Below are positions 22,554-38,451 of a DNA stretch of 64,000 nucleotides, in pieces. The notes beneath the pieces were generated by a model, which had not been told where the DNA came from, did not search any database, and saw only the letters and a list, made by a program, of their open reading frames with translations. The stretch comes from Lachnospiraceae bacterium NK4A144 (GTDB lineage: Bacteria > Bacillota > Clostridia > Lachnospirales > Lachnospiraceae). The DNA lies in assembly GCA_000424365.1 (NCBI GenBank), contig KE384175.1:1-64000 (forward strand), in the 5' to 3' direction. Every line of letters starts with the position of its first letter. The stretch's first letter is position 1. Made by a program: the position numbers and the translations under genes.

Positions 22554-22584
22554 ATCTTGAGGTCAAAAAATTTGACCTCAAGAT
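22554..22584 (+). repeat. Perfect 14-bp-arm palindrome in the ORF6N gene leader
   Basis: ATCTTGAGGTCAAA (22554-22567) and TTTGACCTCAAGAT (22571-22584) flank a 3-nt AAA loop. The central 27 bp recur exactly inside the coding region of the same gene (22835-22861). It ends 14 nt before the ORF6N start codon, just ahead of its ribosome site. Confidence 0.85.
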
Positions 22585-22598
22585 TTGGAAAGGAAAAT

Positions 22599-23651
22599 AT
22601 GGACGGTAAAAATAAGAAAGCGGTTGAGAATACTGAAATAGTTCCAGTAGAAATCACGGAAGAACTTTTGAAAGAAAAACTATATGAGGTACGTGGCGTA
22701 AAGGTGATGCTTGATTCAGATTTGGCAGAAATATACGGATATACTACAAAAGCTTTGAATCAGCAGGTGAAAAATAATCAAGATCGCTTTGATAATGAGT
22801 TTACTTTCAAATTGACTCGAGATGAATGGAAGGACTTGAGGTCAAAAAATTTGACCTCAAGTTGGGGCGGCTCAAGATACCTTCCTAATGTTTTTACGGA
22901 ACAGGGCGTTTATATGCTAATGACTATTCTGAAGGGAGAGCTTGCGGCAAAACAGAGTAAGGACTTAGTTAAAACTTTTAAGAAAATGAAAGATTATATT
23001 CTTGGAAATCAGAGCCTTATCGGTCAGCGCGAGGTTATGCAGATTTCGATACAGACTATGGAAAACACTTCAGAGATTTCAAACTTGCGTATGGATATAG
23101 GATCCGTTGAAAGGCAGATGTCCGATGTAATGGAACAGCTGGGGGAGGTAGTTACTAAATCAGAATTGGCAGATATGATGAATGGTTTTGTTAATAATGA
23201 AGATAATGGATGGCTTATGTTTAATACTAAGTATTGCAGTGCCGCTGTTGCTTATTCTTCCATATACAGCCAAGCGAAAAAGTCAATATACTTAGTCGAT
23301 AACTATATAGGTCTTAGAACGCTGGTGTTACTGAAAAATGCGCCTGCAGGAACTGATATTAGAATATTCAGCGATAATATAGGGAGTGGTAAACTTCACA
23401 ATGTTGAGTATACGGATTTCTGCAAAGAATATCCTAATATTAAACTCACCATGCAGCACACCGGTGGAATATTTCATGACAGATTTATTGTTCTTGATTA
23501 CGGAACAAAAGAAGAACGTGTATTCTTATGCGGCGCATCGTCAAAAGATGCGGGTGGTCGAATCACAAGTATTGTAGAAGATTTTGGAATAGATAAGTAT
23601 AAACCGATGATAAAGAAATTATTGCAAAATGGATTATTGCAACTTCCATAG
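22599..23651 (+). CDS. ORF6N-domain protein with C-terminal phospholipase D-like region
   Basis: A 350-residue protein. The N-terminal ORF6N DNA-binding domain (about 20-130) reads LYEVRGVKVMLDSDLAEIYGYTTKALNQQV, NEFTFKLTRDEWKDL and YLPNVFTEQGVYML. The C-terminal region (about 225-345) resembles a phospholipase D/nuclease fold: AKKSIYLVDNYIGLRTLVLL and a single H-x-R-F-I-V-L-D motif (FHDRFIVLD). Such proteins occur in phages and mobile islands, often as regulators or nucleases. The ATG at 22599 follows GGAAAGGA. The coding sequence contains a perfect palindrome at 22834-22862, encoding LRSKNLTSS. Confidence 0.82.
   Translation: MDGKNKKAVENTEIVPVEITEELLKEKLYEVRGVKVMLDSDLAEIYGYTTKALNQQVKNNQDRFDNEFTFKLTRDEWKDLRSKNLTSSWGGSRYLPNVFTEQGVYMLMTILKGELAAKQSKDLVKTFKKMKDYILGNQSLIGQREVMQISIQTMENTSEISNLRMDIGSVERQMSDVMEQLGEVVTKSELADMMNGFVNNEDNGWLMFNTKYCSAAVAYSSIYSQAKKSIYLVDNYIGLRTLVLLKNAPAGTDIRIFSDNIGSGKLHNVEYTDFCKEYPNIKLTMQHTGGIFHDRFIVLDYGTKEERVFLCGASSKDAGGRITSIVEDFGIDKYKPMIKKLLQNGLLQLP
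22834..22862 (+). repeat. Palindrome inside ORF6N coding sequence, copy of the leader palindrome
   Basis: ACTTGAGGTCAAA (22834-22846), loop AAA, TTTGACCTCAAGT (22850-22862): 13-bp perfect arms. It lies ~80 codons into the gene. A degenerate ORF6N fragment at 38248 has a different but equally paired palindrome at the homologous codons. Confidence 0.85.
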
Positions 23652-23664
23652 GAGGATGTTCTAA

Positions 23665-25371
23665 ATGAAGAAACAAACAAAATGCTATATCTACACCCGT
23701 GTTTCTACAGCAATTCAGGTTGACGGTTATAGCTTGGACGCCCAACGAGATAAGCTAACCAAATATGCTGAATATCAGGATATGGAAGTTGTAAAAGAGT
23801 TTTCTGATGCAGGCCACTCCGGCAAGAATATAAATGGTAGACCGGAGTTCTCAAGGATGCTTGAAGAAATCGCAAGTGGTGCGGATGGAATAAGCTACGT
23901 TCTCGTTTTTAAGTTGTCAAGATTTGGAAGAAATGCAGCTGATGTTCTCAGTTCATTACAGCTAATGCAGGATTATGGTGTTAATCTGATCTGTGTAGAA
24001 GATGGAATAGATAGTTCTAAGGAAGCAGGAAAGCTTATGATTTCAGTTCTATCGGCTGTCGCTGAAATTGAGCGAGAAAATATTCTTGTTCAAACAATGG
24101 AAGGACGAAGGCAGAAAGCAAGAGAAGGTCGCTGGAATGGTGGTTTTGCTCCCTACGGATATACGCTTGTTAACGGGGAACTCATAATTGCAGAAGATGA
24201 AGCTGAAATCATTCGTATTATTTTTGACAAGTATATTCATACCAATATGGGTGTCAATGGTGTGGCAGATTACCTAAACACGCATGGATATAAGAAGAAA
24301 AAGCGTCAGAATAATACACTTGATGCATTTGCAAGTTCTTTCATAAAGGGGGTGCTTGATAATCCTATTTATATGGGAAAGATGCCTTATGGCAGGCGCT
24401 CTAATGAGAAAATTCAAGGAACGCGAAATGAATATCATGTTGTAAAACAAGACGAATATGATTTATATGATGGAATTCATGAGGCTATTATTTCAGAGGA
24501 TGACTTCAGACTTGCAGCTCAAAAACGTAAAGAAACTGGAGTAAAAAGAGAAAAGACGCATAGCCTTGAGCATGAACATATTTTATCGGGAATATTACGG
24601 TGCCCTGTTTGTCATGGCGCTATGTATTCTAATGTTAATCGTAAAAAGAAAGTTGACGGCACATACTATAAGGATTTCTTCTATTATGCATGTAAGCATA
24701 GGCTTAAAGTCGATGGTCATAACTGTAGCTACCATCATCAATGGGGGCAGGATAAAGTAAATGCTGCCGTAGAAGAGGTTATATATAAGCTCGTCAATAA
24801 CCCAAAGTTTCAAGATGCTCTCAAAACTAAAGTGGGAGCAAAAACAGATACAGAAGAGTTGGAAAAAGAAAGAGAAATCTGTCGGACCAGACTTCGACAG
24901 ACAATCGGTGCTAAGAATAAACTGGCTGAGCAGATGGACGCTCTTGATGTTAGTGACAGGTTCTATGACAGAAAATATGATGATATGCAGGAGCGCATGA
25001 ATAAGCTATATGAGGAAATTGGTGCAATAGAAGATGAGATTGATACCATCTCCCTGAGAATCGAAAACATAAACAAGAAGCAGCTTTCCAAAGACTCTAT
25101 CTATCGCATCCTTAAGAGCTTTGATAAAATATACGGTGAATTCACAGATGCAGAAAAGAAGCGCTTTATTAACTCTTTTGTAGAGCGTGTTGAAATCTTT
25201 GAAGAGGAACAGGAGGATGGTCGCTTCTTGAAGAGTATCAAATTTCGGTTCCCGGTATACTACAATGGGGCCGAGACACAGGAAGTGGATCTTTCTGATT
25301 CTGGTTGGGACTATCAAAGAAGCCTCGAGACGGTAGTATTGTTGTCCAAGAAGAACACATATAAGAGATAA
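23665..25371 (+). CDS. Large serine recombinase
   Basis: A 568-residue integrase of the large serine recombinase family. The catalytic domain has nucleophile Ser near residue 14 (YTRVSTAIQVDGYSL), then FKLSRFGRNAADVL and AVAEIERENI. The recombinase domain contains GFAPYGYTLV and IKGVLDNPIYMGK. The zinc-ribbon domain has CPVCHG and a distal CKH...C pair. A long coiled coil (about 390-510) precedes the tail. It integrates and excises the element at short att sites. The last residues (LETVVLLSKKN) echo rlmD and are repeated twice more downstream. Confidence 0.93.
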   Translation: MKKQTKCYIYTRVSTAIQVDGYSLDAQRDKLTKYAEYQDMEVVKEFSDAGHSGKNINGRPEFSRMLEEIASGADGISYVLVFKLSRFGRNAADVLSSLQLMQDYGVNLICVEDGIDSSKEAGKLMISVLSAVAEIERENILVQTMEGRRQKAREGRWNGGFAPYGYTLVNGELIIAEDEAEIIRIIFDKYIHTNMGVNGVADYLNTHGYKKKKRQNNTLDAFASSFIKGVLDNPIYMGKMPYGRRSNEKIQGTRNEYHVVKQDEYDLYDGIHEAIISEDDFRLAAQKRKETGVKREKTHSLEHEHILSGILRCPVCHGAMYSNVNRKKKVDGTYYKDFFYYACKHRLKVDGHNCSYHHQWGQDKVNAAVEEVIYKLVNNPKFQDALKTKVGAKTDTEELEKEREICRTRLRQTIGAKNKLAEQMDALDVSDRFYDRKYDDMQERMNKLYEEIGAIEDEIDTISLRIENINKKQLSKDSIYRILKSFDKIYGEFTDAEKKRFINSFVERVEIFEEEQEDGRFLKSIKFRFPVYYNGAETQEVDLSDSGWDYQRSLETVVLLSKKNTYKR

Positions 25372-25445
25372 GAATATTGATTTTAAAGGCTTGCCCGGAA
25401 AGCACCGTTAAATGGTGCTTTCAGCCCTGGGCGGGCCTTTTATTT
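25325..25445 (+). repeat. Recombinase tail and terminator, repeat copy A
   Basis: The tail coding ETVVLLSKKN runs into a terminator-like structure. AAAGGCTTGCCC (25385-25396) pairs with GGGCGGGCCTTT (25429-25440), and the inner hairpin GAAAGCACC/GGTGCTTTC spans 25398-25422. The same arrangement, with compensatory base changes, is at 34633-34750 (copy C). A shorter tail is at 33503-33548 (copy B). Confidence 0.75.
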
Positions 25446-25570
25446 TTAACCGGAAATAGGACTTATGGGAACTGATCAATAGCGAAAAAGTTGACACGGC
25501 ACTATGGATATTGGGAGATTGCATACAGTTCAACGATAGGTTTGTGTGGAAAAATAATAAAAATTATGCA
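25446..25570. other. Noncoding spacer before the AIPR promoter
   Basis: No reading frame with a ribosome site and no strong hairpin is seen; it is AT-rich DNA between the recombinase terminator and the promoter. Confidence 0.4.
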
Positions 25571-25599
25571 TTGACATAATAACGCTATTGCGTTATTAT
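25571..25599 (+). promoter_or_regulatory. Promoter with a palindromic operator filling the spacer
   Basis: TTGACA (25571-25576), 17-bp spacer, TATTAT (25594-25599). A perfect palindrome ATAATAACGC (25576-25585) / GCGTTATTAT (25590-25599) fills the whole spacer and the -10. A further half-like GCAATAACGG follows near 25608. A bound repressor would block RNA polymerase directly. The XRE protein two genes down is the likely repressor. Confidence 0.7.
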
Positions 25600-25674
25600 C
25601 AAATTGCGCAATAACGGTGCTGCGAATAAAAATTGTTCTGTTAGCTCTATGGGGCTAAGTAGAAAGGAGTCATT

Positions 25675-26832
25675 ATGATTACAAAGACATTCAAAGTTAA
25701 GGCAAGCACATTTAGAAAGCTGGATGATCCGTTTGAAAATGGACCGTCTAAGAAGTATGTTTTTTATTGTAAGGTAGGTGATGTGCCGGAGGGAATTCCA
25801 ATGGCTACTAATCCTCGTGAACAGAAACTTTCATCCGCTGTGGCGAAAGCCATTGAGACTTCACTTTGCAGCAATGATGGATATTTTCATCTGAAAAATC
25901 GTGGTATTGTTATTTCTGCAAGTAAGGTTGTGTTCAATAACCAGAAGGAAGAGGTGACAATTGAATTTGATGATAATGCACTTCATGGTAATATTGATGG
26001 TGGTCACACATACAAGATTGTTTGTGAACACAAAGATGATAATCTTGATCAGTATGTGCAGTTCGAAGTAATGACAGGTGTTGAAGATATCATTGAGGAT
26101 CTCGCACGTGCACGTAATACATCTGTACAGGTTGATGAGAAATCTATGGCTGAATTGGCAAATAAGTTTGATCCGATCAAGGAAGGTCTTGAGGGAATGC
26201 CTTTCTACCAGAGAATTGCATTTAAGCAGAATCAGATTGAGACCGACGATGAAACGGGAAAGAATCTGAAGATGATTGATGCAAGAGAGGTTGTTGCAAT
26301 CATCAACATGTTTGATATAGAAAAATATGACGCTAAAACACAGCCGACACAGGCTTATTCATCTAAGGCAAAGATGCTTACAATGTATCTGGATGATCCA
26401 GAGCATTATCGTAAGTTCGTAAACATTGCCCCTGACATCTTCGATCTGTACGATGCAATTGAGACAGAATTTGCAGAAGCTTATAATAGTACTGGTGGTC
26501 GTTATGGTCGTAAGAAATATGCTGGATATAAGGATGGAGCAGTGGTTGGAAAGAGCAAGTTCGGTCAGAATGAACTTACTTATAAGGTTCCGGATGGTTT
26601 AATGTATCCTGTTCTTGCAGCATTTAGAACTCTCGTGGTAGACAATTCTTCAACCGGAAAGTACGAGTGGTACAATGGAGAGGAACCTATCAAGGTTTGG
26701 GAGAAGTGCAAATGCGAGTTAACAGGCAAGATTATGAGTTTTGCTGCATCCATTGGCGATAATCCAAATGCAGTTGGTAAGGATACAAATATATGGGATT
26801 TAGCTTATATGACAGTTATGCTTCAGAAGTAA
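25675..26832 (+). CDS. AIPR-family (abortive phage infection) protein
   Basis: A 385-residue protein resembling the AIPR family (PF10592), linked to phage abortive infection and to DNA-modification islands. Family-type segments are visible: FHLKNRGIVISASKVVF (about 75), NALHGNIDGGHTYKIV (about 105) and ARARNTSVQVDEKSMAEL (about 145). No membrane segment or signal peptide is present. The biochemical activity is unknown. It forms an operon with the small XRE gene 12 bp downstream, controlled by a palindromic operator promoter. Confidence 0.78.
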   Translation: MITKTFKVKASTFRKLDDPFENGPSKKYVFYCKVGDVPEGIPMATNPREQKLSSAVAKAIETSLCSNDGYFHLKNRGIVISASKVVFNNQKEEVTIEFDDNALHGNIDGGHTYKIVCEHKDDNLDQYVQFEVMTGVEDIIEDLARARNTSVQVDEKSMAELANKFDPIKEGLEGMPFYQRIAFKQNQIETDDETGKNLKMIDAREVVAIINMFDIEKYDAKTQPTQAYSSKAKMLTMYLDDPEHYRKFVNIAPDIFDLYDAIETEFAEAYNSTGGRYGRKKYAGYKDGAVVGKSKFGQNELTYKVPDGLMYPVLAAFRTLVVDNSSTGKYEWYNGEEPIKVWEKCKCELTGKIMSFAASIGDNPNAVGKDTNIWDLAYMTVMLQK

Positions 26833-26844
26833 GGAGGTGGTCGT

Positions 26845-27057
26845 ATGAGTTACTCTATCAGGATTCGCTTGAAAGATATATTAGAAGAACGGGGAATTAA
26901 GCAGAAAGAGCTTGCAGAAATGACTGGCATCCGAGAATCTACTATCAGCGATATTTGTCGAGGCTCTCGTACCGTTATGAATTTTGAGCACGTTGCAAAA
27001 ATAGCAGAGGCATTGGAAATTTCAGATATTAGAGATCTAATAGAACTGGAATCATAA
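26845..27057 (+). CDS. Small XRE-family repressor
   Basis: A 70-residue Cro/CI-type helix-turn-helix protein (LKDILEERGIKQKELAEMTGIRESTISDICRGSRTVMNFEHVAKIAEALEI) consisting of the DNA-binding domain alone. It is preceded by AAGGAGGTGG and is co-transcribed with the AIPR gene. It is the natural candidate to bind the palindrome at 25576-25599 and keep the defence gene low. Confidence 0.88.
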   Translation: MSYSIRIRLKDILEERGIKQKELAEMTGIRESTISDICRGSRTVMNFEHVAKIAEALEISDIRDLIELES

Positions 27058-27063
27058 ATTAAT

Positions 27064-27101
27064 GAGGCTGTCACACTAATTGGTGTGGCAGTCTTTCTAT
27101 A
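27064..27101 (+). terminator. Terminator of the AIPR-XRE operon
   Basis: GGCTGTCACAC pairs with GTGTGGCAGTC and is followed by TTTCT. Confidence 0.6.
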
Positions 27102-27131
27102 AGACTGAAATATAAAAGTTAGCTTATAGAG

Positions 27132-27458
27132 ATGGATGAGGTACTTGTTCAGATGGAAAATGACTATGCTATCAAGGAAAAATGGTAGAGCTATGCAAAG
27201 AATAATGACCGTGCCACTTTTATGTTATTGTTTGAGAAAGGCATTCTAACTATGGCTGCTGAGCGTTATGAGCAGAATGATGAGTTTTTTAAAAAACTAT
27301 TTTCAGATCCGGATATGATGCAGCAGGTTATGGATACAGTCGGGTCTGTTCTTTATGAGAGACTTCGTAGTCCTAAGATTTATGATCCTAATTCGGGAGT
27401 TATTGAAGAGGCAACGCCGGAGACGTATGTAGAGGATGTTTACGCAAAAAATATATAG
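27132..27458 (+). pseudogene. Remnant of a larger gene, interrupted by an in-frame stop
   Basis: A frame reading MDEVLVQMENDYAIKEKW, a TAG near 27187, then SYAKNNDRATFMLLFEKG...DEFFKKLFSDPDMMQQVMDTVGSVLYERL continues to 27458. The two halves read as one protein broken by a stop. The tail has the flavour of helicase/restriction-subunit C-termini, but this is not certain. It probably marks a deleted restriction or defence gene. Confidence 0.4.
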
Positions 27459-27492
27459 AGGATAGAGACTAAAGTTAAGGGAGAGTTTGAGC

Positions 27493-28533
27493 ATGAAGCT
27501 GATAAGCGTGGTATGTCCTAAGTGTGGAGCATCGATTCAAGTCGATGCAGACAACAGAAATCTTAGTTGTAGCTATTGTGGAAATACGTTGATTTTGGAT
27601 GACGAAGTAAAACATTTTCAATTTGATAATGCAGAAAAAGCAGGATATGAATTTGAAAAGGGAAGGCAACGTGCTCAGAGGGAACGATATGAAAACGTTA
27701 ATTATAATATCAAGGATAACGCAAAAACTTCCAAGAAGAGTAGAACATGGTTGTGGATACTAGGTTGGATTTGTATTTTTCCGGTTCCTCTGGCAATTAT
27801 TATGTGGCGGAATAATAAAATAAAGATGCCGGTAAAAATCGCAATCATATTTGCAGCATGTCTTTTGTATCTGGGAATTGGTCTCTTGAGTAATATTTCG
27901 GATTCCGGCAACAATGCTGTGAAGGCAAAAGATAATGATATAGTTGAAGAAAATGGATTAAATGAAGACGTTGTACAGAATGAAGAATCAATAAACGAAA
28001 GTAAAAAAACACAAACAGATTTGGAGTCAAAAGAAGCTAAAAAAGAAAAGAAAAAAAAGATAATTACATCGGACGATCTTTACGATCTTGCTGATGAATT
28101 TATTGAAAAGTATAATGCGGTAGCGGAAAATAAGGCAGTGAATGTTACAAAATATGACATTCATGAAGAGCATACTCGAGTAGAATATCGTTTACAGGGA
28201 TTTGATGATTCGGTGGGATCATATGTTGAGCTTTCTGATGGTTATCTTGAGGTCATAACTTCAATGCCGGGATTTTTATCAGATGGATTGAGCATGAAAG
28301 ACATCAGGATATACGGTAGTTTTAAGGAATTTGAAACAGCCAAGGACGCTCTAGAAAAAATAGCACCAGTGCTTGATCCTTCTATAACAGTGGAAATGAT
28401 TCAGGACAGTTGTACGGAATATCCGGAAAACGAAATTAATGGGGTGATAAGAGGTGATGATGGTGCTAAATCGGTGTATATAGTCCGAGAAGCAACTCAA
28501 TCAGAATATAAATATGAGCTGTTTATAGAATAA
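27493..28533 (+). CDS. Zinc-ribbon membrane protein of unknown function
   Basis: A 346-residue protein. The N-terminal zinc ribbon has CPKCGA...CSYCGN (residues ~8-34). Two membrane helices follow at ~80-98 and ~105-125 (WLWILGWICIFPVPLAIIMW; AIIFAACLLYLGIGLL). After a Lys/Glu-rich linker comes a soluble C-terminal domain (~190-346) that should lie outside the membrane if the ribbon is cytoplasmic. The ATG at 27493 follows AGGGAGAG. It is 25 bp upstream of the DUF4236 gene, probably the same operon. Function is unknown. Confidence 0.7.
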   Translation: MKLISVVCPKCGASIQVDADNRNLSCSYCGNTLILDDEVKHFQFDNAEKAGYEFEKGRQRAQRERYENVNYNIKDNAKTSKKSRTWLWILGWICIFPVPLAIIMWRNNKIKMPVKIAIIFAACLLYLGIGLLSNISDSGNNAVKAKDNDIVEENGLNEDVVQNEESINESKKTQTDLESKEAKKEKKKKIITSDDLYDLADEFIEKYNAVAENKAVNVTKYDIHEEHTRVEYRLQGFDDSVGSYVELSDGYLEVITSMPGFLSDGLSMKDIRIYGSFKEFETAKDALEKIAPVLDPSITVEMIQDSCTEYPENEINGVIRGDDGAKSVYIVREATQSEYKYELFIE

Positions 28534-28558
28534 AAATATATTGGAGGATGGTATAGAA

Positions 28559-29923
28559 ATGGGGTTGCGATTTAGAAAATCTGTAAAAATCTGTAAAGGT
28601 GTTAAAGTTAATTTTTCTAAGTCAGGAGCTAGTTTGTCTCTTGGAGGACGCGGTCATGCTATGAATTTTGGACGGCGTGGAGTGAAAGCGACTTTAGGAA
28701 TACCGGGAACAGGGTTATCGTATGGGACTACGATTATAGGTGGTCATAAGAAATCTGGTTCACATCATAAAAGTAAAACGAAAACAACGAGGAGCACATC
28801 AAGATCCACAAGCTCGTCAAGACAGACCTACACTACTCCGTTACCTAAAAACATTCAGATAAAGATGGACCCAAATGGAAAGGTAGAAGTGCTAAATGAA
28901 TGGGGAGGAGCGATTACTGATCAGTCCGTATTAAGGAAGATTAAACAAACTGATGCATATAAGAATCAAGTGCAAATTCTTGAACAACAAAGACAGCAAA
29001 TGCTTGATAATGCCTTCAACGATGCAAAAGAGGAAAATGATAAATTTATTGATATCTATAAGCTGTCACCAGATGTTGATAAACTTGAAAAATACCAAGA
29101 GATTCTAGCAAATCTTAAACCGTCTGTATATGTTTGTAATGATTACACTGTTCCTTGTCCTACGGAGGAACAGATCAGGACGGCGCTTATGAATGAAGCG
29201 AAGGAAAATGTCAGCGGTAATTTTTTCACAGTTGGAAAACTGCGTAAGAGTTATGTAGAAGATAATCTTCAGACTCGATTAACTCAGGAGATGGCACGAT
29301 GGAAAAGTGAAAAAGAGGCATTTGATAGTTCTGAAAAGGATAGAGAACGTAGCGAGAATGAACGTTTTCTTCAGGAATTCGAAAATAATAAAACTTATAT
29401 GCAGGACATAATCGCAGGTGAGAATGAAGTTGTCTCTGAGATGGTCGAAGCCTGGATAGCTTCTTGCGAGCTTCCGGTCGAGATTAATGTTGATTATGAG
29501 TGGGATAAAGAAAAAAGGAGCATGTACCTCGACGTTGATTTGCCGGAAATTGAGGATATTCCTGAAAATGAAGTGGTGCGATTAGCGAGCGGTAATCTTA
29601 AAGAAAAAAAGAAGACGCAGGCAACGTTGAAAGAAGAGTATATGAGGCTTGTGTTTGGTCTGGCGATATTTATTTCTGCAAATATTTATAACTGTAGCCC
29701 GGCAATTCATAATCTGATTATATCTGGCTATACGCAGCGTCGGGACAAATCTGGAGAGCTGAATGACGAATACGTATACTCGATAAAATTTACTAGAGAT
29801 ATTTTTGAAAATAGTTTTGTCTCCCGCGTTGATCCTTATAAGTTTTGCATGCGCTTTGAGAATAGGTGCAATGTGACAAGTACAATGTTAATGAAAAAGA
29901 TAGAGCCTTTCGAGGCAGAATAG
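28559..29923 (+). CDS. DUF4236-domain protein
   Basis: A 454-residue protein. The first ~60 residues form the DUF4236 domain (MGLRFRKSVKICKGVKVNFSK, GASLSLGGRGHAMNFG, KATLGIPGTGLSYGT), a compact beta motif of unknown role. A Ser/Lys/Thr linker follows, then a mainly helical, charged region (~110-290) and a mixed C-terminal domain with no motif I recognise. The start follows GGAGG with an 11-nt spacing. It is in line with the zinc-ribbon gene upstream and a metallopeptidase-HTH gene downstream. Confidence 0.75.
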   Translation: MGLRFRKSVKICKGVKVNFSKSGASLSLGGRGHAMNFGRRGVKATLGIPGTGLSYGTTIIGGHKKSGSHHKSKTKTTRSTSRSTSSSRQTYTTPLPKNIQIKMDPNGKVEVLNEWGGAITDQSVLRKIKQTDAYKNQVQILEQQRQQMLDNAFNDAKEENDKFIDIYKLSPDVDKLEKYQEILANLKPSVYVCNDYTVPCPTEEQIRTALMNEAKENVSGNFFTVGKLRKSYVEDNLQTRLTQEMARWKSEKEAFDSSEKDRERSENERFLQEFENNKTYMQDIIAGENEVVSEMVEAWIASCELPVEINVDYEWDKEKRSMYLDVDLPEIEDIPENEVVRLASGNLKEKKKTQATLKEEYMRLVFGLAIFISANIYNCSPAIHNLIISGYTQRRDKSGELNDEYVYSIKFTRDIFENSFVSRVDPYKFCMRFENRCNVTSTMLMKKIEPFEAE

Positions 29924-32387: not shown

Positions 32388-32984
32388 ATGGTAGAGTCAA
32401 AGAAAACGATGACTCAGAATCTTGAAGAAATGAAGAATAGAGTCGACGTTAATTTAGAACAAGAAGGAAAAGATTTTGATGAAAAGGTTGAAGACGGACT
32501 GACCGAGGAGCAGAAAGCTAAAATAAAAGAGGAGACTGGCTGGTCTGATGAAGTCATAGACGTTATGATAACATGGGTTGAGTATCAAATATATAAAAAA
32601 GCAGGTTTACAAGAAGTAGAAATTGGTGGCAAGAAGTGTCTTATTAGAGATGACATTGACTTGGATAAGAAGTGGGAAAATGGTAAATTTGATGAAAACG
32701 GGAATCCTAAATTTGAAAAAAATCGAGAACGTATGGAAAAAGGCAGGGCACCTCTTGATGAGAGCGGTAAGCCTATTCAGCTTCACCATATTGGACAACA
32801 TGCAGATTCACCTCTTGCCGAATTGAAATTTGTGGAGCATAGATGTAATGGTAATGACACAATTCTTCATCAAAAGACTAAGGAAACTGAAATTCATGGC
32901 GCGGGAAATAGGTGGGACAAAGAACGTCAGGAATATTGGAAGAATCGTGCAGCATATAGTAAGGGAGAGAGTGGCAATGGCTAA
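32388..32984 (+). CDS. LHH-type HNH/Endo VII nuclease toxin
   Basis: A 198-residue protein. The C-terminal nuclease domain has the conserved LHH motif (GKPIQLHHIGQHADSPLAEL, ~130-150), then HRCNGNDTILH and an E/H-rich end, as in toxin domains of the HNH/Endonuclease VII superfamily. The N-terminal part (ETGWSDEVIDVMITWVEYQIYKKAGLQE) is the pretoxin segment often linked to LXG or Wap-type proteins, but no secretion or delivery domain is present. It is followed, with 8 bp overlap, by an SMI1-like immunity gene. Start 32388 follows GGAGGAAA. Confidence 0.85.
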   Translation: MVESKKTMTQNLEEMKNRVDVNLEQEGKDFDEKVEDGLTEEQKAKIKEETGWSDEVIDVMITWVEYQIYKKAGLQEVEIGGKKCLIRDDIDLDKKWENGKFDENGNPKFEKNRERMEKGRAPLDESGKPIQLHHIGQHADSPLAELKFVEHRCNGNDTILHQKTKETEIHGAGNRWDKERQEYWKNRAAYSKGESGNG

Positions 32985-33381
32985 TATAGTGGAGAAATTA
33001 AAAATGATACCTGATTTGGGAAGAGCAAAGGGATGTTCTCTTAAACAGATAAAAGATGCACAAGAGCAATTGGATATGGTTTTCCCTGATGAGTATATTG
33101 ATTATGTAAAAGAATTTGGTTGCATTGATTTTGGAGCGACAGAATGGACAGGCCTAAATATTAAAGGTTATTTGAATACAGTTACAGCTACGCAGCAGGA
33201 AAAAAATGTAAATTCCAGTTTTCCACATAAGCATTTTGTGTTAGAAGATTTAAGTATTGATGCCAAAAAGGTTATTGTGAATGAAGATGGGAAGGTTTAT
33301 ATGCTTCAGTACGAGAGAATAACACCTTCGTGTAATTCAATTTCTGAATACTTAGATATGTGCATCCAAAAGAATCGTTAA
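32977..33381 (+). CDS. SMI1/KNR4-family immunity protein
   Basis: A 134-residue cytoplasmic protein with the SMI1/KNR4 pattern (GCSLKQIKDAQEQLDMVFPDEYIDYVKEFGCIDF, then WTGL and FVLEDLSIDAKKVIVNEDGKVYML). This superfamily supplies many immunity proteins of polymorphic toxins. Its overlap with the LHH nuclease gene argues that it neutralises that toxin. Confidence 0.82.
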   Translation: MANIVEKLKMIPDLGRAKGCSLKQIKDAQEQLDMVFPDEYIDYVKEFGCIDFGATEWTGLNIKGYLNTVTATQQEKNVNSSFPHKHFVLEDLSIDAKKVIVNEDGKVYMLQYERITPSCNSISEYLDMCIQKNR

Positions 33382-33808
33382 AGTTTTTGAACATAGTTTA
33401 TGTTGAAGGTGGTTTCAAAATCTGAGAAATTGTTAAAGTTTTCATTTTCATGAGCTCTTTAATATACTACCAGTGAAACGTACCTAACCTTGCTTTTGGC
33501 AACGTCGAGACGATAGTATTGTCGTTCAAGAAGAATACACATAAGTGATAAAAATGGAACTGGATCCCATGTCTATCAAAATACCTTATGTAATAAAAGT
33601 AGCTGCCTAAACAGCAGTATTGGTGTTATGGACGCACCCTGAACCTACGTTGAAGTTTTCAACACGCATCAGATGCTCGGCAATTCAATTGCCGAGTAGT
33701 TCACTGGAGTTGATATAAGGCGATGTACAAAATGTGATTCATAATATATTAGGTTGAATTATAGCTATAATCTATAGTAAAATGTGATTAAGAAATGGAG
33801 GTGTTCAC
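33382..33808. repeat. Recombinase-tail repeat copy B and a hairpin
   Basis: At 33503-33548 the frame VETIVLSFKKNTHK, followed by a stop, matches the end of the serine recombinase at 25325-25371. Further on, CTCGGCAAT (33676-33684) pairs with ATTGCCGAG (33688-33696). No gene is supported. The segment may be an old att site left by an element insertion. Confidence 0.55.
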
Positions 33809-34051
33809 ATGAAAATTGATACCAATACTATGATTTCAATCACAGAAGCAAACCAGAACTTTTCCAAGGTTACCAGATTAGTTGATGAGAAGGGATCTGC
33901 GCTTATTCTGAAAAATAATGTTCCACGATATCTTGTAATTGATTTTAGTAAAGCAGATGAAAATTCTGTTGCCTCAAATGAAGATGTTCTTGCCATATCC
34001 AAAAGACTTCTTGACCAAAATAAGGAAGCTTATCAGGAGCTTGCGAAATGA
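33809..34051 (+). CDS. Phd-family antitoxin
   Basis: An 80-residue antitoxin. The N-terminal Phd/YefM-like fold (NTMISITEANQNFSKVTRLVDEKGSALILKNNVPRYLVIDF) binds its own promoter in this family, and the C-terminal helix (EDVLAISKRLLDQNKEAYQELAK) wraps the toxin. It overlaps doc by 4 bp. AATGGAGGTG precedes the ATG. Confidence 0.85.
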   Translation: MKIDTNTMISITEANQNFSKVTRLVDEKGSALILKNNVPRYLVIDFSKADENSVASNEDVLAISKRLLDQNKEAYQELAK

Positions 34052-34425
34052 AAAGATTAAGCAAAGAGCAGATTTTGATGCTTCATTCTCAGTTGATTGA
34101 AGTGTCAGGTGGAAGTGATGGAGTAAGAGATTATAATTTGCTGGATTCAGCGTTAGAAAGTCCATTCCAGTCATTTGGAGGAGAAGATTTTTATCAGACC
34201 GTTCAGGCTAAGGGTGCAAGACTTGGATACGGTCTGATAAAAAATCATTGCATGGTTGATGGTAAAAAAAGAATCGGGACTCATGCAATGCTGGTATTTC
34301 TTGCTTTGAATGGCATAGAACTCAAATATACTCAAAAAGAGCTGTATGAAACAATTCTAAAGGTTGCAGATGGAAGTATGGAATATGACGATTTACTGCA
34401 ATGGGTTTTAGAACATGAGGTGTGA
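34048..34425 (+). CDS. doc: Doc-family toxin (Fic fold)
   Basis: A 125-residue Doc protein. In the family, the Fic-type motif HxFx(D)GN(K)R phosphorylates EF-Tu. Here it reads NHCMVDGKKRIGTHAMLVFLALNG (~70-93): His, Asp, Gly and the KR pair are kept, but the usual Asn of GN is Lys. Other Doc features are LMLHSQLIEVSGGSDGVRDYNLLDSALESPFQSFGG. The variant motif may weaken or alter catalysis. Paired with the Phd antitoxin upstream. Confidence 0.85.
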   Translation: MKRLSKEQILMLHSQLIEVSGGSDGVRDYNLLDSALESPFQSFGGEDFYQTVQAKGARLGYGLIKNHCMVDGKKRIGTHAMLVFLALNGIELKYTQKELYETILKVADGSMEYDDLLQWVLEHEV

Positions 34426-34557
34426 TTCCTCGAATACCAATTCGAAATAGTAATAAACACGAGCGGTGAGGCGATTGTCTTGTCGCTTTTTTGTTTGGGC
34501 AGCTGTGGGAGTTTTGATTGACAAGTAACAAGTTTGATTGCATTATTTGATTGAAAT

Positions 34558-34756
34558 AGCGAATCAGATATAAATTCCGTGTAGATTATGGTACTGAAGG
34601 CGATGGCAAGGTGTCGTTTAACGAGAACGATGTCGAGATGCTAGTATAGCTGTCAGAGAAGAACATATATAAGAGATAAGAATATTGATTTTAAAGGCTT
34701 GCCTGGAAACTACCGTTAAATTGCGGTTTCAGCCCTGGGCAAGCCTTTGTTTTTAT
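34558..34756 (+). pseudogene. Serine recombinase 3' remnant with terminator (repeat copy C)
   Basis: From ~34571 the frame KFRVDYGTEGDGKVSFNENDVEMLV, then an in-frame TAG, then LSEKNIYKR matches the end of the intact recombinase (KFRFPVYYNG...LETVVLLSKKNTYKR). The following structure repeats copy A: AAAGGCTTGCC (34693-34703) with GGGCAAGCCTTT (34737-34748). This is the tail of a second, lost recombinase and marks an element boundary. Confidence 0.65.
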
Positions 34757-34895
34757 TTCTCAAGAAGGCTTTCCATGCTACAACCGAGCACTTTTGAGAT
34801 TCGGTAGAGAGCATCGGTACTCACTTTGTTGATATCTGCTTCGTGAAGCGTATAGTACATGTTTGTCAGGTCTTCGCAGGAGAGTTGTAAACGGT
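34755..34895 (-). pseudogene. XRE-type regulator remnant
   Basis: On the minus strand the frame RLQLSCEDLTNMYYTLHEADINKVSTDALYRISKVLGCSMESLLEK then stop is the C-terminal half of a small helix-turn-helix repressor. Its N-terminus is missing. It is a fragment left by rearrangement next to repeat copy C. Confidence 0.55.
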
Positions 34896-34986
34896 AACTG
34901 GACATGAATATAGTACATAGTTACAATGATTAATGAAAAAAATGGCTCATTCATCTCGTGAAAGGGCAGGGAAAGTTGGGATATAA

Positions 34987-35826
34987 ATGAAAAATATTTT
35001 CGGAGCAGATATTACAGATAAGAATGATTCGCATGTTAATTATGAAAAGTTTATAGACAGAAGAATCAGTGATGAGACAAAGAAAATCGCGGAAGACTAT
35101 GACAAAAAAGTGTCGGATATTATGGCAAGAGCAACTATTCCGGATCTGTTGATAACGATTTATAGAAGCAGTACTTATGTGATGATAGCAGCGGTGCTGC
35201 TGTACTTGTCAAGTCATATAAAATACAAGTTAGTGATCTTCGGAGCGCTCTTTTTGATCGCAGGAGTCGCAAAGATCGTCATCAGGAAGTATGCTGAGAA
35301 ACGGAAGAAAAGCGTAATGACTGAAGAGGCCAAAGATGAACTTGACAGTGAATATAAAAAAGTTCAGGTGCTTATCAGTAATGAACTGAGGATTCCCGAT
35401 GAAACTGAGAAAGTCGATGTATTAATGGAGCGATATATCGAGAAGAACGGAAAGGTAAAGAGTAAGGGATATATTATCACCGATTGTAAAAACCTTCCGG
35501 TGAAAATATTTGAAGAGGATATGTATTTTTGCATCACGGATAATGTCGAAGTAGAAAGAATCCCATTTTCGTCCATAAAAGGTATTTCTTACACAAAGTG
35601 GAAAAAGAGCTTCTTAGAATGGAATAAGGAGGAAAAATACAATTCAAAGACTTTCAAAAAATATAAGGTTGTACAGAACGGAATGGAAATATATTTCGTG
35701 AAGTGTCTTAAAGTTGAATTTACATGTGATGGTGAAGATTATTACCTAATGTTCCCCATTTATGAAAAAGACAAGGTTTTAAAGATTGCACATTTAACGA
35801 CACTGAATAATGCTTATGCTATGTAA
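34987..35826 (+). CDS. Two-helix membrane protein of unknown function
   Basis: A 279-residue protein, unrecognised. Two adjacent membrane helices occur at ~58-78 and ~83-100 (YVMIAAVLLYLSSHI; LVIFGALFLIAGVAKIVI). Before them is a charged N-terminal region, and after them a ~175-residue cytoplasmic domain with alternating strands (GYIITDCKNLPVKIFEEDMYFCITDNVEVERIPFSSI), suggestive of a PH-like fold. It is a single gene between island fragments, followed by terminators. Confidence 0.6.
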   Translation: MKNIFGADITDKNDSHVNYEKFIDRRISDETKKIAEDYDKKVSDIMARATIPDLLITIYRSSTYVMIAAVLLYLSSHIKYKLVIFGALFLIAGVAKIVIRKYAEKRKKSVMTEEAKDELDSEYKKVQVLISNELRIPDETEKVDVLMERYIEKNGKVKSKGYIITDCKNLPVKIFEEDMYFCITDNVEVERIPFSSIKGISYTKWKKSFLEWNKEEKYNSKTFKKYKVVQNGMEIYFVKCLKVEFTCDGEDYYLMFPIYEKDKVLKIAHLTTLNNAYAM

Positions 35827-35887
35827 ACAATGACTGTAACTAAATTTCGATGGATTACAAGATAGAACTAAACTAATGAAAGTCAGA

Positions 35888-36140
35888 GGATAACCTCGTA
35901 GTCAATGAATGAGGTTATCCTTGCCGCTTTCTTAAATTGACTTTATTCAAGACTATAGAAGAACCCACAGGAGTGTTCTTGTGGGTTAGTAAAAAGTGTA
36001 AGTAAAACAGGCTTTTTTTCAGTGTGGAGAAGAGTCTGTTTTCTTTTCGTGATATGATGATAATGGAGTTGAGTATTTAGTAATGGGCTAACAGAATAGA
36101 AATTGATAACGACAGGGTGTGGAAATTATCTGCACCCTGT
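35888..36140. terminator. Three successive hairpins
   Basis: GGATAACCTC/GAGGTTATCC (35888-35920), AACCCACA/TGTGGGTT (35962-35987) and ACAGGGTG/CACCCTGT (36112-36140, followed by TTTTGTTT). The first and last look like intrinsic terminators. No gene lies between them. Confidence 0.55.
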
Positions 36141-36178
36141 TTTGTTTACAATATGTACTTGACAAAAGCGATTGTTAC

Positions 36179-36227
36179 GTAAGCGAAATGTATTACACCG
36201 GTATAATACCTAAAGTACATTTCGCTT
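36179..36227. repeat. IS66-type element end with a 12-bp hairpin
   Basis: The sequence begins GTAAGCG, the usual start of IS66 terminal repeats. AAGCGAAATGTA (36181-36192) pairs perfectly with TACATTTCGCTT (36216-36227) and is followed by TTTTATTTTT. A near copy stands at 38132 in the same orientation. Confidence 0.65.
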
Positions 36228-36950
36228 TTATTTTTCAGTTTCGTTTTTCTGATCAGTAGAACAAGACCTTCTCATTTTATCTGTCCATGGCATCAATTCA
36301 TCTATGTTTTCGGACTCATCATTGTAGCCCATCATTTCAATCAATACCTTTTCCAAATATTTCATGACATTTAGCTTGTTACGTTTTGCACTTTCGACCA
36401 GGCTATATATGATCGCACTGGTTTCAGCGCCGTCTGTAGAGTTATGGAACATGAAGTTCTTTCTTCCGACAGCGTAAGGACGAGCACTGTTTTTCGCGAA
36501 ATTATTAGAAATCGGGATACGTTCATCCAGCAAATAATTCTTTGGCATGTTCTCCATGCCGTGAGGGCTGATATTCATACATCGCGATGGGAGGAAATCC
36601 ATCGTTTCCGGTGCAGTACAGCCACATATAGGATTTTGACTGTGGTGTCTTTCCATTCTCTTTAAGGACTTGACACGGAGTCTCATCCATACAGATCAAT
36701 ATCCTGTCTATCAAGTAATGATGCAACCGTTCATACACAGGTCGAAAATACTTTTCAGCACAGGTTATGCTCCATTTCACCATTGCAGTTAGGACAGATC
36801 CGATCTTCTGGATCTACTGGAATGACACGCTTTTCCGATGGAAGATTTTTATAGATTTCTTCGTTTGTAGACTTCTTTTTTCGAGACTCTTTTCTTTTAT
36901 AAGATGAAATCTCTTTTTCGCAATTAAACAACTTGAAATACTTACGCAGA
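36228..36950 (-). pseudogene. IS66-family transposase with internal deletions
   Basis: On the minus strand the N-terminal linker (EEIYKNLPSEKRVIPVDPEDRICPNC) jumps straight to SITCAEKYFRPVYERLHHYL and DETPCQVLKENGKTPQSKSYMWLY. After YEYQPSRHGEHAKELF the frame changes near 36540 to LLDERIPISNNFAKNSARPYAVGRKNFMF and the C-terminus. Two central blocks of the normal ~500-residue transposase are missing, so it cannot be active. Confidence 0.8.
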
Positions 36951-37037
36951 TATAATCATATTCTGGATTTAAAAGTGATTTCACTTGTGCTATTTTATAA
37001 ATCAAAGTAGAACAGATACACCAAGGATTGAATTGCT

Positions 37038-37982
37038 ATGGATAACCTAAAACCAATACTTTCTGTTGATGAACAGATTCAACATTTAAAGGATAAGGGT
37101 GTTAGATTTGAAATAATGGATGAAGAAAGTGCTAGGCATTATTTGACCGAGCATAATAATTATTTTAAGCTTACATCTTATAGAAAAAATTATGCGAAGC
37201 ATCCGGATGGCGAGAATAGGGGTAAATACATAGATCTTGATTTTGCATATTTAGTGGATATTGCTGTCATAGATATGCAGTTAAGATACATGATAGTTCC
37301 GATGGCGCTGGATATCGAACACCATACTAAGTTGCAGTTGCTAAGGAAGGTAGAGAACCATTCAGAGGATGGCTATCAAATAGTTCAGGATTATATAGAT
37401 TCTCTAAGTGCAAATCAAAAGGCAATTTATGATGGCGAAATAGATCGCAACAGAGGGAATGTATATTGTGGAGATATAATCGATAAGTATGATGGAGCGT
37501 ATCCAATCTGGGCTTTTCTTGAGGTTATACCATTTGGACGCCTTGTTTCGTTCTATAGTTTTTGTGCAGACAGATTTGCTGATAAAAATATGAAGAACAA
37601 CTTTTACAGGTTGTTGACCTGTAAAGAAATACGGAATGCTTCTGCTCATAGTAACTGTATTCTTAATGACTTGAAGGCAAGGACAGCAAGCCATGATACC
37701 AATGCTGGTGTAACTAAGGCATTGATGAACATTAAGGGAATGAATACAAACTTTAGAAAGAACCGCATGAGCAATGCTAGAATCCAGCAAATTGTGACCC
37801 TTCTTTACATGCACAAAGAGATTGTTACAAGTGAAGGGGTGCATGAGAATGAGGGTAAGGGGCTCCATGATGTGATCACTAGCGCATTCAAGAATAAGGA
37901 CTATTATAAGAATAATCCGATGCTTAAGGGTACCTTTGATTTTTTGAAATTGGTGGTTGACAGTTGGTATACTCATGAGTAA
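37038..37982 (+). CDS. Abi_2-family abortive infection protein (HEPN-like)
   Basis: A 314-residue protein of the AbiD/AbiF group (Abi_2), which aborts phage infection in lactococci. Family features are LSVDEQIQHLKDKGVRFE, YLTEHNNYFKLTSYRKNY, DLDFAYLVDIAVIDMQLRYMIVPMALDIEHHTKLQLL and the HEPN-type RNase motif R-N-A-S-A-H (EIRNASAHSNCIL, ~210). The fold suggests toxin-like RNA cleavage on infection. It stands alone between two IS66 ends, with a terminator after it. Confidence 0.88.
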   Translation: MDNLKPILSVDEQIQHLKDKGVRFEIMDEESARHYLTEHNNYFKLTSYRKNYAKHPDGENRGKYIDLDFAYLVDIAVIDMQLRYMIVPMALDIEHHTKLQLLRKVENHSEDGYQIVQDYIDSLSANQKAIYDGEIDRNRGNVYCGDIIDKYDGAYPIWAFLEVIPFGRLVSFYSFCADRFADKNMKNNFYRLLTCKEIRNASAHSNCILNDLKARTASHDTNAGVTKALMNIKGMNTNFRKNRMSNARIQQIVTLLYMHKEIVTSEGVHENEGKGLHDVITSAFKNKDYYKNNPMLKGTFDFLKLVVDSWYTHE

Positions 37983-38074
37983 AATATAAAGCACAAAGAA
38001 AAAGTTTAACTTTTGCAGAGCGGCATTGCACATAGTGTGATGTTAGCTCTGTTTTTCGTTGTATAGATATTCTT

Positions 38075-38098
38075 GCCTCCTGCAGGAGGCTTTTTTTT
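38075..38098 (+). terminator. Terminator after the Abi gene
   Basis: The perfect palindrome GCCTCCTGCAGGAGGC (38075-38090) is followed by eight T. Confidence 0.7.
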
Positions 38099-38131
38099 AG
38101 TTTCCATTATGCAAACTAGGTTTTCATATTG

Positions 38132-38247
38132 GTAAGCGAAATGTATTATGCCGGGTAGAAATTCTCGGAAATGCATTTTGCTTTTATTTTTCAGCTTCGT
38201 TTTTCTGATCTGTAGAACAAGATCTTCTCATTTTATCTGTCCATAGT
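38132..38247. mobile_element. Second IS66 end, truncated
   Basis: GTAAGCGAAATG starts at 38132 and the next ~115 bp follow the 36179-36290 sequence closely, including the transposase C-terminal codons on the minus strand. The match ends abruptly at ~38247, where an ORF6N fragment begins. It is a direct-repeat copy, so the Abi gene is bracketed by IS66 ends. Confidence 0.7.
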
Positions 38248-38451
38248 CGGAAGTTTCAAGGTGATGATTTTATGTTTGAACTTACGGATGAAGAGACAGA
38301 GAAACTTTCAAGGTGCAAAAATTTCACCTTGAAGATTGATGATAGAATAATTTATAGCATACGTGATAAGACAGCATTTATACAAATGTCTTGGATAAAA
38401 TTACTTAATGACAGAAAGAATATAGGTCAGTGGAGAACAAAACTCTGCTGA
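38248..38451 (+). pseudogene. ORF6N-domain gene fragment containing a covarying palindrome
   Basis: The frame RKFQGDDFMFELTDEETEKLSRCKNFTLK matches the middle of ORF6N domains (compare EFTFKLTRDEWKDLRSKNLTS in the intact gene), then diverges and stops at 38451. Start and 5' half are lost at the IS66 junction. TTCAAGGTG (38307-38315) pairs with CACCTTGAA (38325-38333) at the same codons where the intact gene has its palindrome, though the arm bases differ. Confidence 0.6.

Follow-up and report, generated by a model that had tools for sequence, protein, structure and literature searches.

Palindromes within ORF6N genes as probable binding sites of the proteins they encode

Why does a gene for a DNA-binding domain carry, within the codons of that domain, a palindrome whose arms differ from copy to copy and still pair? 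This question is raised by a stretch of 64,000 nucleotides from Lachnospiraceae bacterium NK4A144 (contig KE384175.1; the whole stretch is called the window below), which holds one intact ORF6N gene and the remnant of another. An initial annotation, made from the letters alone, proposed that compensatory changes preserve an inverted repeat in ORF6N coding DNA and that this repeat is recognized by the protein, serves as a recombination or diversification site, or acts as an mRNA switch.

Palindromes of ORF6N genes in the window and beyond

The features of the window that bear on this question are listed here.

22553..22585, no strand: leader palindrome, 15-bp arms, 3-nt centre, 13 nt from palindrome end to ATG
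22599..23651, + strand: ORF6N gene, 350 aa counted from ATG; ORF6N DNA-binding domain, then PLD-fold C-terminal domain
22746..22775, + strand: predicted recognition helix, codons of residues 50-59 (residue 51, 22749-22751; residue 55, 22761-22763; residue 59, 22773-22775)
22834..22862, no strand: in-gene palindrome, 13-bp arms, codons 79-88; putative binding site of the encoded protein
22869..22880, + strand: probable wing, codons of residues 91-94, of which 91, 93, and 94 track bases
23475..23498, + strand: HDRFIVLD, HKD-like motif of the PLD-fold domain, residues 293-300
38245..38334, + strand: ORF6N remnant, profile 34-61, E 0.00037; the match stops at its palindrome
38307..38333, no strand: palindrome of the ORF6N remnant, 12-nt arms, 92% complementarity

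The encoded protein matches the Pfam ORF6N profile (PF10543) over profile positions 2-86 with an E value of 8.6e-34 and 116.1 bits, the curated cut-off being 27.8 bits. Its AlphaFold2 model (mean pLDDT 80) contains a helix-turn-helix and places residues 51, 55, and 59 inside a predicted helix at 50-59; residues 85-89 have pLDDT values <50. By Foldseek with the predicted model, the C-terminal domain has a PLD fold (6ehi (NucT), E 1.1e-04; also PLD3 and Zucchini), and HDRFIVLD is a candidate for its HKD-like, or HxK(x)4D, catalytic motif, with Arg where Lys is expected. A Foldseek search with the ORF6N domain model returned no significant structural homologue (best E 0.15), and a search for a solved structure of an ORF6N-domain relative found none.

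Both palindromes of the intact gene were located where they had been described, and they share an identical 27-mer (22556-22582 in the leader, 22835-22861 in the gene). The facing arms reported for the second ORF6N fragment (38307-38315 and 38325-38333) fall within the palindrome of the remnant, but the fragment itself, given as 38248-38451, is recognizable as ORF6N only for about 38245-38334. At these codons the three further ORF6N matches of this genome also carry palindromes, whose arms differ; that of L001 is imperfect.

The same feature was then scored in 287 distinct ORF6N genes, from which duplicates, domains of <60 residues, and positions near contig ends had been excluded, with 55 positions near the motif tried per gene. 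In 275 of the 287, a palindrome scoring 8 pairs or more out of 10 is found within the coding sequence at about the same codons; the best score was 10/10 in 125 genes, 9 in 114, 8 in 36, 7 in 9, and 6 in 3. In the distant Bacillota ORF6N genes L137-L140 and L142, the motif lacks a clear palindrome (5-7 of 9 at best). The pattern RRTCRCAANTTGYGAYY occurs in 39 of 50 genomes with an ORF6N match and in 0 of 30 without one (the reversed pattern, in 1 of 80), and 62 of its 71 sites coincide by position with ORF6N matches.

The codons of some peptides, LRSQIATS among them, can form a palindrome, and the feature could be a chance by-product of a conserved peptide. Synonymous-codon resampling refutes this explanation: palindromes of at least 9/10 pairs are present in 80.8% of 281 ORF6N genes compared with 0.30% after resampling, far above what the codons of the peptide would give. 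The amino acids at the palindrome codons also covary (Gln with Val, Ala, or Gly; Lys or Asn with Ser, Phe, Leu, or Cys), and in 20 genes the palindrome lies in another reading frame, over another peptide. We therefore give chance essentially no weight.

Nor do the two arms vary independently. When arms were swapped among 166 distinct arm pairs, pairing fell from a mean of 9.20 to one of 6.03, and none of 500 swaps exceeded 6.46. In a separate count on 61 ORF6N sequences (60 distinct; one window sequence and 60 chosen among 110 listed of 138 plus-strand references), 96.1% of the cells were paired and 154 cells had changed on both sides, compared with 34.8 after shuffling (0/500) and no more than 30 in slid controls. 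The proposal of compensatory changes in coding DNA is borne out by these data. Its corollary that pairing, not sequence, is conserved tells only part of the story: half-site positions d2 and d6 are nearly fixed (d2 = A in 373/394, d6 = T in 382/394), bases follow specificity residues of the protein, and pairing as such is not what is kept. Across the sequences compared, the presence of the palindrome, its match to the protein, and its occurrence in several phyla are strongly supported.

Residues that predict palindrome bases

The match between protein and palindrome was counted in 252 genes of the 287-gene set (score at least 8, offset 0 or -2), with half-sites counted singly. At residue 59, Arg occurs with d3 C in 331/332 half-sites and Asn with d3 A in 153/156; at residue 55, Gln occurs with d4 A (208/214), Glu with d4 G (132/136), and Arg with d5 G (87/104); Lys at residue 51 occurs with d7 G (314/318). 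Farther along the domain, Arg at residue 93 occurs with d10 G (310/316) and Lys with d10 A (89/96), Tyr at residue 94 occurs with d8 G (243/248), and residue 91 tracks base d9. Within each of five source groups, every rule holds at 89% or more. The specificity residues lie outside the palindrome codons, and bases are predicted from 20-30 codons away.

This coupling does not arise at the protein level, because synonymous third bases and a second reading frame obey it. Where d4 is the third base of a serine codon, Gln55 occurs with TCA in 97/97 cases and Glu55 with TCG in 55/56, and in the second reading frame the rule for residue 59 fits 40/40 half-sites. Residue 55 fits less well in that frame (Arg, d4 A 3 and C 3; Lys, d4 G 4).

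Shared ancestry was taken into account with a FastTree phylogeny of 78 columns, from which the trait columns were omitted and rows with gaps >30% removed (232 kept); few of its branches are well supported, and the pair counts take all branches. Mean independent pairs with the same, opposite, or no base change were 33.8/0/1.2 for 55-d4, 21/0/0 for 94-d8, 28/0/1 for 93-d10, 6/0/0 for 59-d3, and 17.3/0/9.7 for 51-d7; starred branches gave 1 to 3 pairs among the tests listed. When 51 other residues were compared with d4 only, most gave pairs both ways, although residues 52, 56, 58, and 53 of the recognition helix and, less strongly, 40 and 47 tended to one side versus d4 too.

One might still ask whether structure alone is selected, either as a hairpin in mRNA or single-stranded DNA or as a quasi-palindrome that template-switch mutation keeps perfect, with no recognition by a protein. 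Near-perfect pairing despite varied arms, even among the copies of one array, is what such a process would leave, and leader copies are found in both orientations (L066 and L100, whose leader copies resemble their own gene's palindrome better once inverted). However, G.U mismatches do not exceed A.C mismatches in coding copies (G.U 19, A.C 40, other 67) or leader copies (17, 15, and 20, respectively), which rules against the hairpin or mRNA switch that had been suggested; distant residues predict the bases; and the core sites tested are mostly at ORF6N matches. We regard structure alone as highly improbable. Since the bases track specificity residues and G.U is not above A.C, the data are more in keeping with a double-stranded site for a dimer than with a hairpin.

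From the residue-base coupling and the helix-turn-helix of the model, the ORF6N protein appears to bind DNA sequence-specifically, and the contacts implied (Arg-Gua, Asn/Gln-Ade, Glu-Cyt) are chemically ordinary. The predictive power of residues 51, 55, 59, 91, 93, and 94 gives strong comparative support to the earlier idea that the protein recognizes the palindrome. The in-gene palindrome is thus very probably the cognate site at which the gene's own protein binds DNA. A symmetric dimer would read one half-site twice, with residues of the recognition helix (51 reading d7, 55 reading d4/d5, and 59 reading d3) and of the probable wing (91 reading d9, 93 reading d10, and 94 reading d8). With both arms read alike, each change of specificity would require matched changes in both arms, and the site would consequently resemble a covarying hairpin. 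The site codons are predicted to cover a helix end and a loop of low model confidence, probably flexible, where many peptides would be tolerated.

Leader copies, broken loci, and possible functions

Leader palindromes of at least 9/10 were found in 54 of 252 ORF6N genes with enough upstream sequence, compared with 14 of 239 in a control stretch. They agree with the protein of their own gene in 255/330 cases (0.773; permuted mean 0.619, maximum 0.715 in 2000 permutations) and with residue 59 in 101/108, whereas residue 55 is poorly followed (Gln-A 27/54, Glu-G 7/26), and adherence to the code is stricter at in-gene sites than at leader sites. Because residue 55 is so poorly followed, leader sites are not necessarily equivalent to in-gene sites as operators. 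The spacing from leader to in-gene palindrome has no clear helical phase: a period of 10.5 bp gives R 0.17 and p about 0.25, and a period of 10.0 bp gives p about 0.02 for all 48 distances and 0.18 for the 28 distinct ones. DNA looping between the two sites is without support from helical phase.

The use of the site is most likely autorepression: the bound protein would block transcription of its own gene at the in-gene site and also, in genes that have one, at a leader site, which precedes the ribosome-binding site. An operator within the gene would move along with it into whatever operon it enters. We consider this an evenly balanced proposition; leader palindromes are present in only 54/252 genes, which weakens a promoter-proximal model of autorepression.

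Alternatively, cutting, joining, or copying of ORF6N genes could take place at the palindrome, from which extra copies would spread. Among 26 partial or broken loci, 5 start or stop a few residues from the palindrome (L004, L329, L333, L334, and the window remnant), and among 12 hand-picked loci L093, L097, L125, L133, and L135 also break there (L329 and L125 are one sequence). L097 and L125 resemble leader-to-in-gene deletions, and L133 retains the two palindromes next to each other. Additional copies within the gene are spaced 36 to 72 bp apart and keep the reading frame in the cases listed (L239 has one with a stop), and arrays lie after the stop codon, their copies differing but each still paired. 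Against this, most of the 26 loci break elsewhere or by frameshift, and in L131 and L132 the break is upstream of the palindrome. Direct repeats at palindromes commonly undergo deletion between them, and recombination gives no reason to expect coupling to residues of the recognition helix. Intact genes also have few partial ORF6N copies beside them (20 listings around 275 genes, 7 upstream and 13 downstream, several of them whole second genes), which likewise speaks against the idea that leader palindromes are what is left of older ORF6N copies; one locus, L241/L389, is a clear case of such a fossil. Some breakpoints do fall at palindromes, but a recombination or diversification site is not needed to explain the data, and we consider it improbable.

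Comparison with known systems and other gene families

Operators in coding DNA are known from O_I in galE and O2 in lacZ, in some cases with a partner operator close to the promoter. These belong to an enzyme gene under control rather than to the gene of the regulator, and, unlike the ORF6N site, they are not known as a feature of a whole family. Also comparable is parS, a palindromic site within spo0J/parB, the gene for the protein that binds it, with changes of specificity between relatives; parS is a partition site with further sites elsewhere, and it is not known to be family-wide in such a position. By PHROG matches, phage anti-repressors of the ORF6N/KilA-N/Bro class share the domain family, and the part of the literature covered yielded no description of an in-gene site in them.

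The palindrome might also be a replication origin within an initiator gene. In phage lambda, ori sits within the O gene and has four 19-bp repeats to which the O protein binds (PMC4488673). The likeness lies in a protein's binding sites within its own coding sequence. One ORF6N gene (L109) has four in-gene palindromes at 45 bp, and two Segatella plasmids (4.1 and 3.0 kb) carry an ORF6N gene. Both plasmids, however, have a separate replication-initiation gene, extra in-gene sites are scarce, and many ORF6N genes are on long, apparently chromosomal contigs. In place of the four iterons of lambda, there is usually one palindrome in the DNA-binding domain, mostly with no sign of a part in replication. 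An origin is very unlikely.

After autorepression, self-immunity is the second candidate for the purpose of binding: the ORF6N protein would be a defense or abortive-infection factor, and the site would mark or protect the carrier element allele by allele, with identical binding. In the BstA/aba abortive-infection system of prophages, BstA has a predicted KilA-N-like DNA-binding domain, and cognate, allele-specific self-immunity comes from a short DNA element of its own locus (PMC8585504). An element matched allele by allele to the protein of its locus is seen for ORF6N also, on comparative rather than functional grounds. Proteins of all five families compared here match PADLOC single-gene phage-defense candidates: three ORF6N proteins and one RhuM protein (PDC-S05; E 9e-104 for the window protein, a candidate label and no proof of defense), and one protein each of DUF1016 (PDC-S02), Bro-N (PDC-S13), and KilA-N (PDC-S22). 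The L388 ORF6N gene has a DNA methylase gene on one side and a type I specificity gene on the other, and the PLD-fold domain of the window protein and the stricter code at in-gene sites also point this way. On the other side, aba is an experimentally shown 63-bp element with CCCGCC direct repeats over the bstA start codon, with no palindrome in domain codons (PMC8585504). That layout is absent from the window gene, where the palindrome is at codons 79-88; ORF6N genes without room for a PLD domain still have the site (e.g. L147, 187 aa), and leader copies ahead of the start codon look regulatory. The ORF6N case, known by sequence comparison, differs further in its readable residue-base code and its extension to other families. 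Self-immunity is a possible but doubtful purpose.

If the cognate-site reading is true, genome sequence alone gives a large domain family that has been little studied both its binding site and a recognition code, residue by residue, and the target of an orphan protein can be read out of its own gene. Selection at the DNA level would then override protein sequence within conserved domains, including a palindrome in two reading frames. How BstA-like proteins recognize their own element would become testable across many families.

Analogous in-gene palindromes are present in RhuM, KilA-N, and DUF1016 genes and, less fully, in Bro-N genes, and no description of them or of those in ORF6N was found in the part of the literature covered. 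Their presence suggests that genes moving singly between operons regulate or recognize themselves by a common logic. We tentatively propose, at somewhat less than even confidence, that self-addressed genes are a general class: in at least five families of short, mobile, defense-associated DNA-binding genes (ORF6N, RhuM, KilA-N, DUF1016, and Bro-N), each gene would carry its own protein's address within its codons, address and protein would co-diversify by a readable code, and the address would be an allele-specific self/non-self tag by which the gene, at any new location, spares or controls only its own copy. Homology between ORF6N and RhuM is not claimed (profile comparison probability 4%). 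The residue-base code is found in RhuM and, with fewer changes, in KilA-N; in DUF1016 the coupling is weaker (best r 0.69, n = 47), and the synonymous null covers only the 22 of 62 genes with enough columns. In Bro-N the site is at the modal place in 9 of 22 genes, and palindromes of at least 9/10 off the modal place number 20 in DUF1016, 10 in RhuM, 5 in Bro-N, and 1 in KilA-N.

Palindromes of the window gene and its relatives

The three palindromes described in the initial annotation, in an ORF6N gene, its leader and a degenerate ORF6N copy, are all present in the window:

22553-22585, leader palindrome
22599-23651, ORF6N gene of 350 aa, from ATG (Pfam E 8.6e-34)
22834-22862, in-gene palindrome
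38307-38333, palindrome of the ORF6N remnant

The remnant does match ORF6N, but over a shorter stretch than the 38248-38451 first described: the match covers 38245-38334 only and ends at its palindrome. An Abi_2/AbiD-like gene (37038-37982) lies directly upstream of it. At 61459-61497 there is an inverted repeat whose 17-bp arms, perfectly matched, flank a 5-nt centre. The genome of the window has four ORF6N matches; two (L003 and L004) carry perfect palindromes in the corresponding codons, with arms that differ from those of the window gene, and in a third (L001) the palindrome at this place is imperfect and the one in the leader is perfect. The exact GAGGTCAAANNNTTTGACCTC core is confined to the window gene (twice) and the gene of L004. 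Two records (L061, L062), named Oribacterium and Pseudobutyrivibrio, hold the window protein in almost the same form (99% identity), which suggests a recent transfer.

ORF6N genes were collected from several sources. A survey of the family was positive in 48 of 200 genomes and one of Bacteroidota in 74 of 247; a scan of genome contigs gave 77 loci, and viral contigs gave 1 and 61. The peptide patterns for the contig scans were positioned outside the palindrome. Of 72,556 plasmid records 21 matched, and 8 of these were taken; 12 genomes or records from which loci derived were also used. Surveying Bacillota more widely yielded little (6 of 348 genomes positive), and the window protein had matches in only 4 of 50,697 phage records. 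In the resulting set of 287 distinct genes, the highest-scoring palindrome close to the motif matched at no fewer than 8 of 10 scored arm pairs in 275 and at no fewer than 9 in 239. These 239 comprise 212 in the register of the window gene, 16 that are two bases off, in another frame, and 11 elsewhere, some of them in inserted copies; when the cut-off was lowered to at least 7 for the two main offsets only, the registers held 242 and 20. The second-register DNA codes for other peptides, such as ELVANCDRF in place of LRSQIATS. Two Segatella copri plasmids (L143 and L144, 4,140 and 2,955 bp) have two listed genes each, for a replication-initiation protein and an ORF6N protein, the latter gene with a second-frame palindrome.

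The proposal that pairing is kept beyond what the codons require, by paired changes in the arms, held in both respects. Scores of at least 9/10 occurred in 80.8% of 281 real genes and 0.30% of synonymous resamples, and a gene's own arms paired at 9.20/10 compared with 6.03/10 for swapped arms. Amino acids on the two sides of the centre codon covaried as well: where Gln preceded it, the residue that followed was Val, Ala or Gly in 148/150 cases, and where Lys or Asn did, it was Ser, Phe, Leu or Cys in 77/79. A separate pair counter agreed on 60 distinct sequences, with 11 of 12 pairs altered on both sides and a covariation score of 0.596, versus 0.167 after shuffling and no more than 0.099 in slid controls.

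Protein residues that track half-site bases

All columns were compared for residues, encoded outside the palindrome, whose identity would predict the bases of the half-site (d1, d2 and so on). The strongest couplings joined residue 59 to d3 (r 0.986), 55 to d4 (0.916) and 51 to d7 (0.713), with 93-d10, 94-d8 and 91-d9 also at the top. Arg59 goes with C (331/332) and Asn59 with A (153/156); Gln55 with A (208/214) and Glu55 with G (132/136); Lys51 with G (314/318), Arg51 being looser (A 79, G 41); Arg93 with G (310/316); and Tyr94 with G (243/248). Five rules each hold at 89% or more within each of five source groups. Even where the half-site base is a third codon position that can vary synonymously, residue 55 tracks it (Gln: TCA in 97/97; Glu: TCG in 55/56), which disfavours a protein-level cause.

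On a tree made without the trait columns, with few well-supported branches among the results listed, residue 55 and d4 underwent 35 changes each, giving means of 33.8 independent pairs in the same direction, 0 opposite and 1.2 without a base change. In the same order, the pairs were 21/0/0 for 94/d8, 28/0/1 for 93/d10, 16.7/0/0.3 for 55/d5, 6/0/0 for 59/d3, 17.3/0/9.7 for 51/d7 and a weak 1.5/0/14.5 for Gly/His at 91 and d9. Most of 51 other residues, compared against d4 only, had pairs in both directions; the one-way exceptions were 52 (20.9), 56 (8.5), 58 and 53, all in the helix that holds residue 55, and two weaker ones, 40 and 47.

The predicted structure has a helix-turn-helix (39-46 and 50-59) with residues 51, 55 and 59 in its second helix, and codons 79-88, where the palindrome lies, correspond to the last part of helix 74-82 plus a loop, 85-89, of lowest model confidence. 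A domain-only model gave the same elements, and the C-terminal domain has a predicted PLD fold. For the ORF6N domain, structure searches, including Foldseek with the domain model, gave no relative of solved structure.

Of 50 ORF6N-bearing genomes, 39 contain the RRTCRCAANTTGYGAYY pattern, and of 30 genomes that lack a match none does; 62 of its 71 sites lie at ORF6N matches by coordinates. All nine others were inspected. By eye, L380 and L385 are remnants of ORF6N; L381 and L382 resemble a terminator or chance match; L384 is imperfect and sits inside a different coding region; and L379, L383, L386 and L387 are palindromes that stand alone. L379:1995-2023, in the genome of the window, is a perfect family palindrome between SLFN_AlbA_2 and AAA_21 genes, remote from the ORF6N matches of that genome.

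The in-gene palindrome is very probably a site bound by the protein of the same gene. In-gene mismatches (d3-11, 197 distinct sites) comprised 19 GU, 40 AC and 67 other, and those of leader copies (d3-12, 48 copies) 17, 15 and 20. At d1, a gene's own arms pair no better than swapped ones (0.512 vs 0.529), and the leader copies of two loci (L066, L100) fit their own gene best if inverted. Judged from its sequence, the palindrome very probably acts as DNA, not RNA.

Leader copies and possible roles of the probable binding

Family-like palindromes elsewhere near 284 genes cluster upstream: 89 of the 136 listed lie 201-400 bases before the in-gene centre. Under a strict criterion, 54 of the 252 genes whose available sequence sufficed have a leader palindrome, versus 14 of 239 for a control stretch. 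Leader copies are closer to their own gene than to others (the mean was attained in none of 2000 permutations), with the own copy best or tied in only 15/52. They fit residue 59 (101/108) but fit residue 55 poorly (Gln-A 27/54, Glu-G 7/26), which argues that the in-gene site, not the leader, would be the one strictly kept.

We rank autorepression first among roles for this binding and give it an even chance. Self-immunity like that of BstA/aba ranks second, as a possible but less probable role. Recombination comes below it and is unlikely: some broken ORF6N genes begin or stop at the palindrome, but most of 26 partial loci do not, and among loci picked by hand L131 and L132 break upstream of it. 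Two loci (L097, L125) have apparent deletions between leader and in-gene palindromes, and another (L133) retains both, side by side. Replication is ranked last, as very improbable. These three readings share or allow the same binding claim as autorepression, and all four functions are mutually compatible.

Tandem copies also occur. One ORF6N gene (L109:2627-2926) holds four in-frame palindromes in 45-bp steps, each paired, with arms that vary from copy to copy, and three Bacteroidota loci (L183, L195, L213) have arrays directly after the stop codon. An ORF6N gene with two tandem leader palindromes is flanked by N6 DNA methylase and type I specificity genes (L388:1-2854).

Similar palindromes in other gene families

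Four other families of mobile, defence-associated genes were examined, counting palindromes of at least 8/10 no more than 12 columns from one modal place.

Modal palindromes in four families (distinct genes with the palindrome; fraction at 9/10 or above around the modal place; synonymous null)
RhuM (L391-L420, L500-L579): 95/99; 0.908 (n=98); 0.021
KilA-N (L445-L469, L580-L659): 65/68; 0.779 (n=68); 0.012
DUF1016 (L470-L499, L660-L695): 49/62; 0.818 (n=22); 0.009
Bro-N (L421-L444): 9/22; 0.364 (n=22); 0.018

At RhuM column 49, Glu, Arg and Lys go with G, C and C at d4, and Glu and Arg with C and G at d5, a pattern much like that of ORF6N residue 55. Tree pairs were 10/0/0, 11/0/0 (Glu vs Leu) and 18/0/1 (column 79) in RhuM, and 4/0/0, 5/0/0, 8/0/1 and 3.8/0/0.2 in KilA-N. 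Control columns, pooled by each column's larger direction, gave 308 vs 91 in RhuM (208 columns) and 80 vs 12 in KilA-N (117 columns); the KilA-N coupling taken alone is therefore suggestive. Coupling in DUF1016 was weaker. Tested members of all five families (three ORF6N proteins, one per other family) matched PADLOC candidate-defence models.

Palindromes resembling KilA-N/Bro-N sites adjoin ORF6N genes at L095 (+811 and +967 from the in-gene centre), L085 (-303) and L133 (-90 and -867), as if sites of these families shared regulatory regions.
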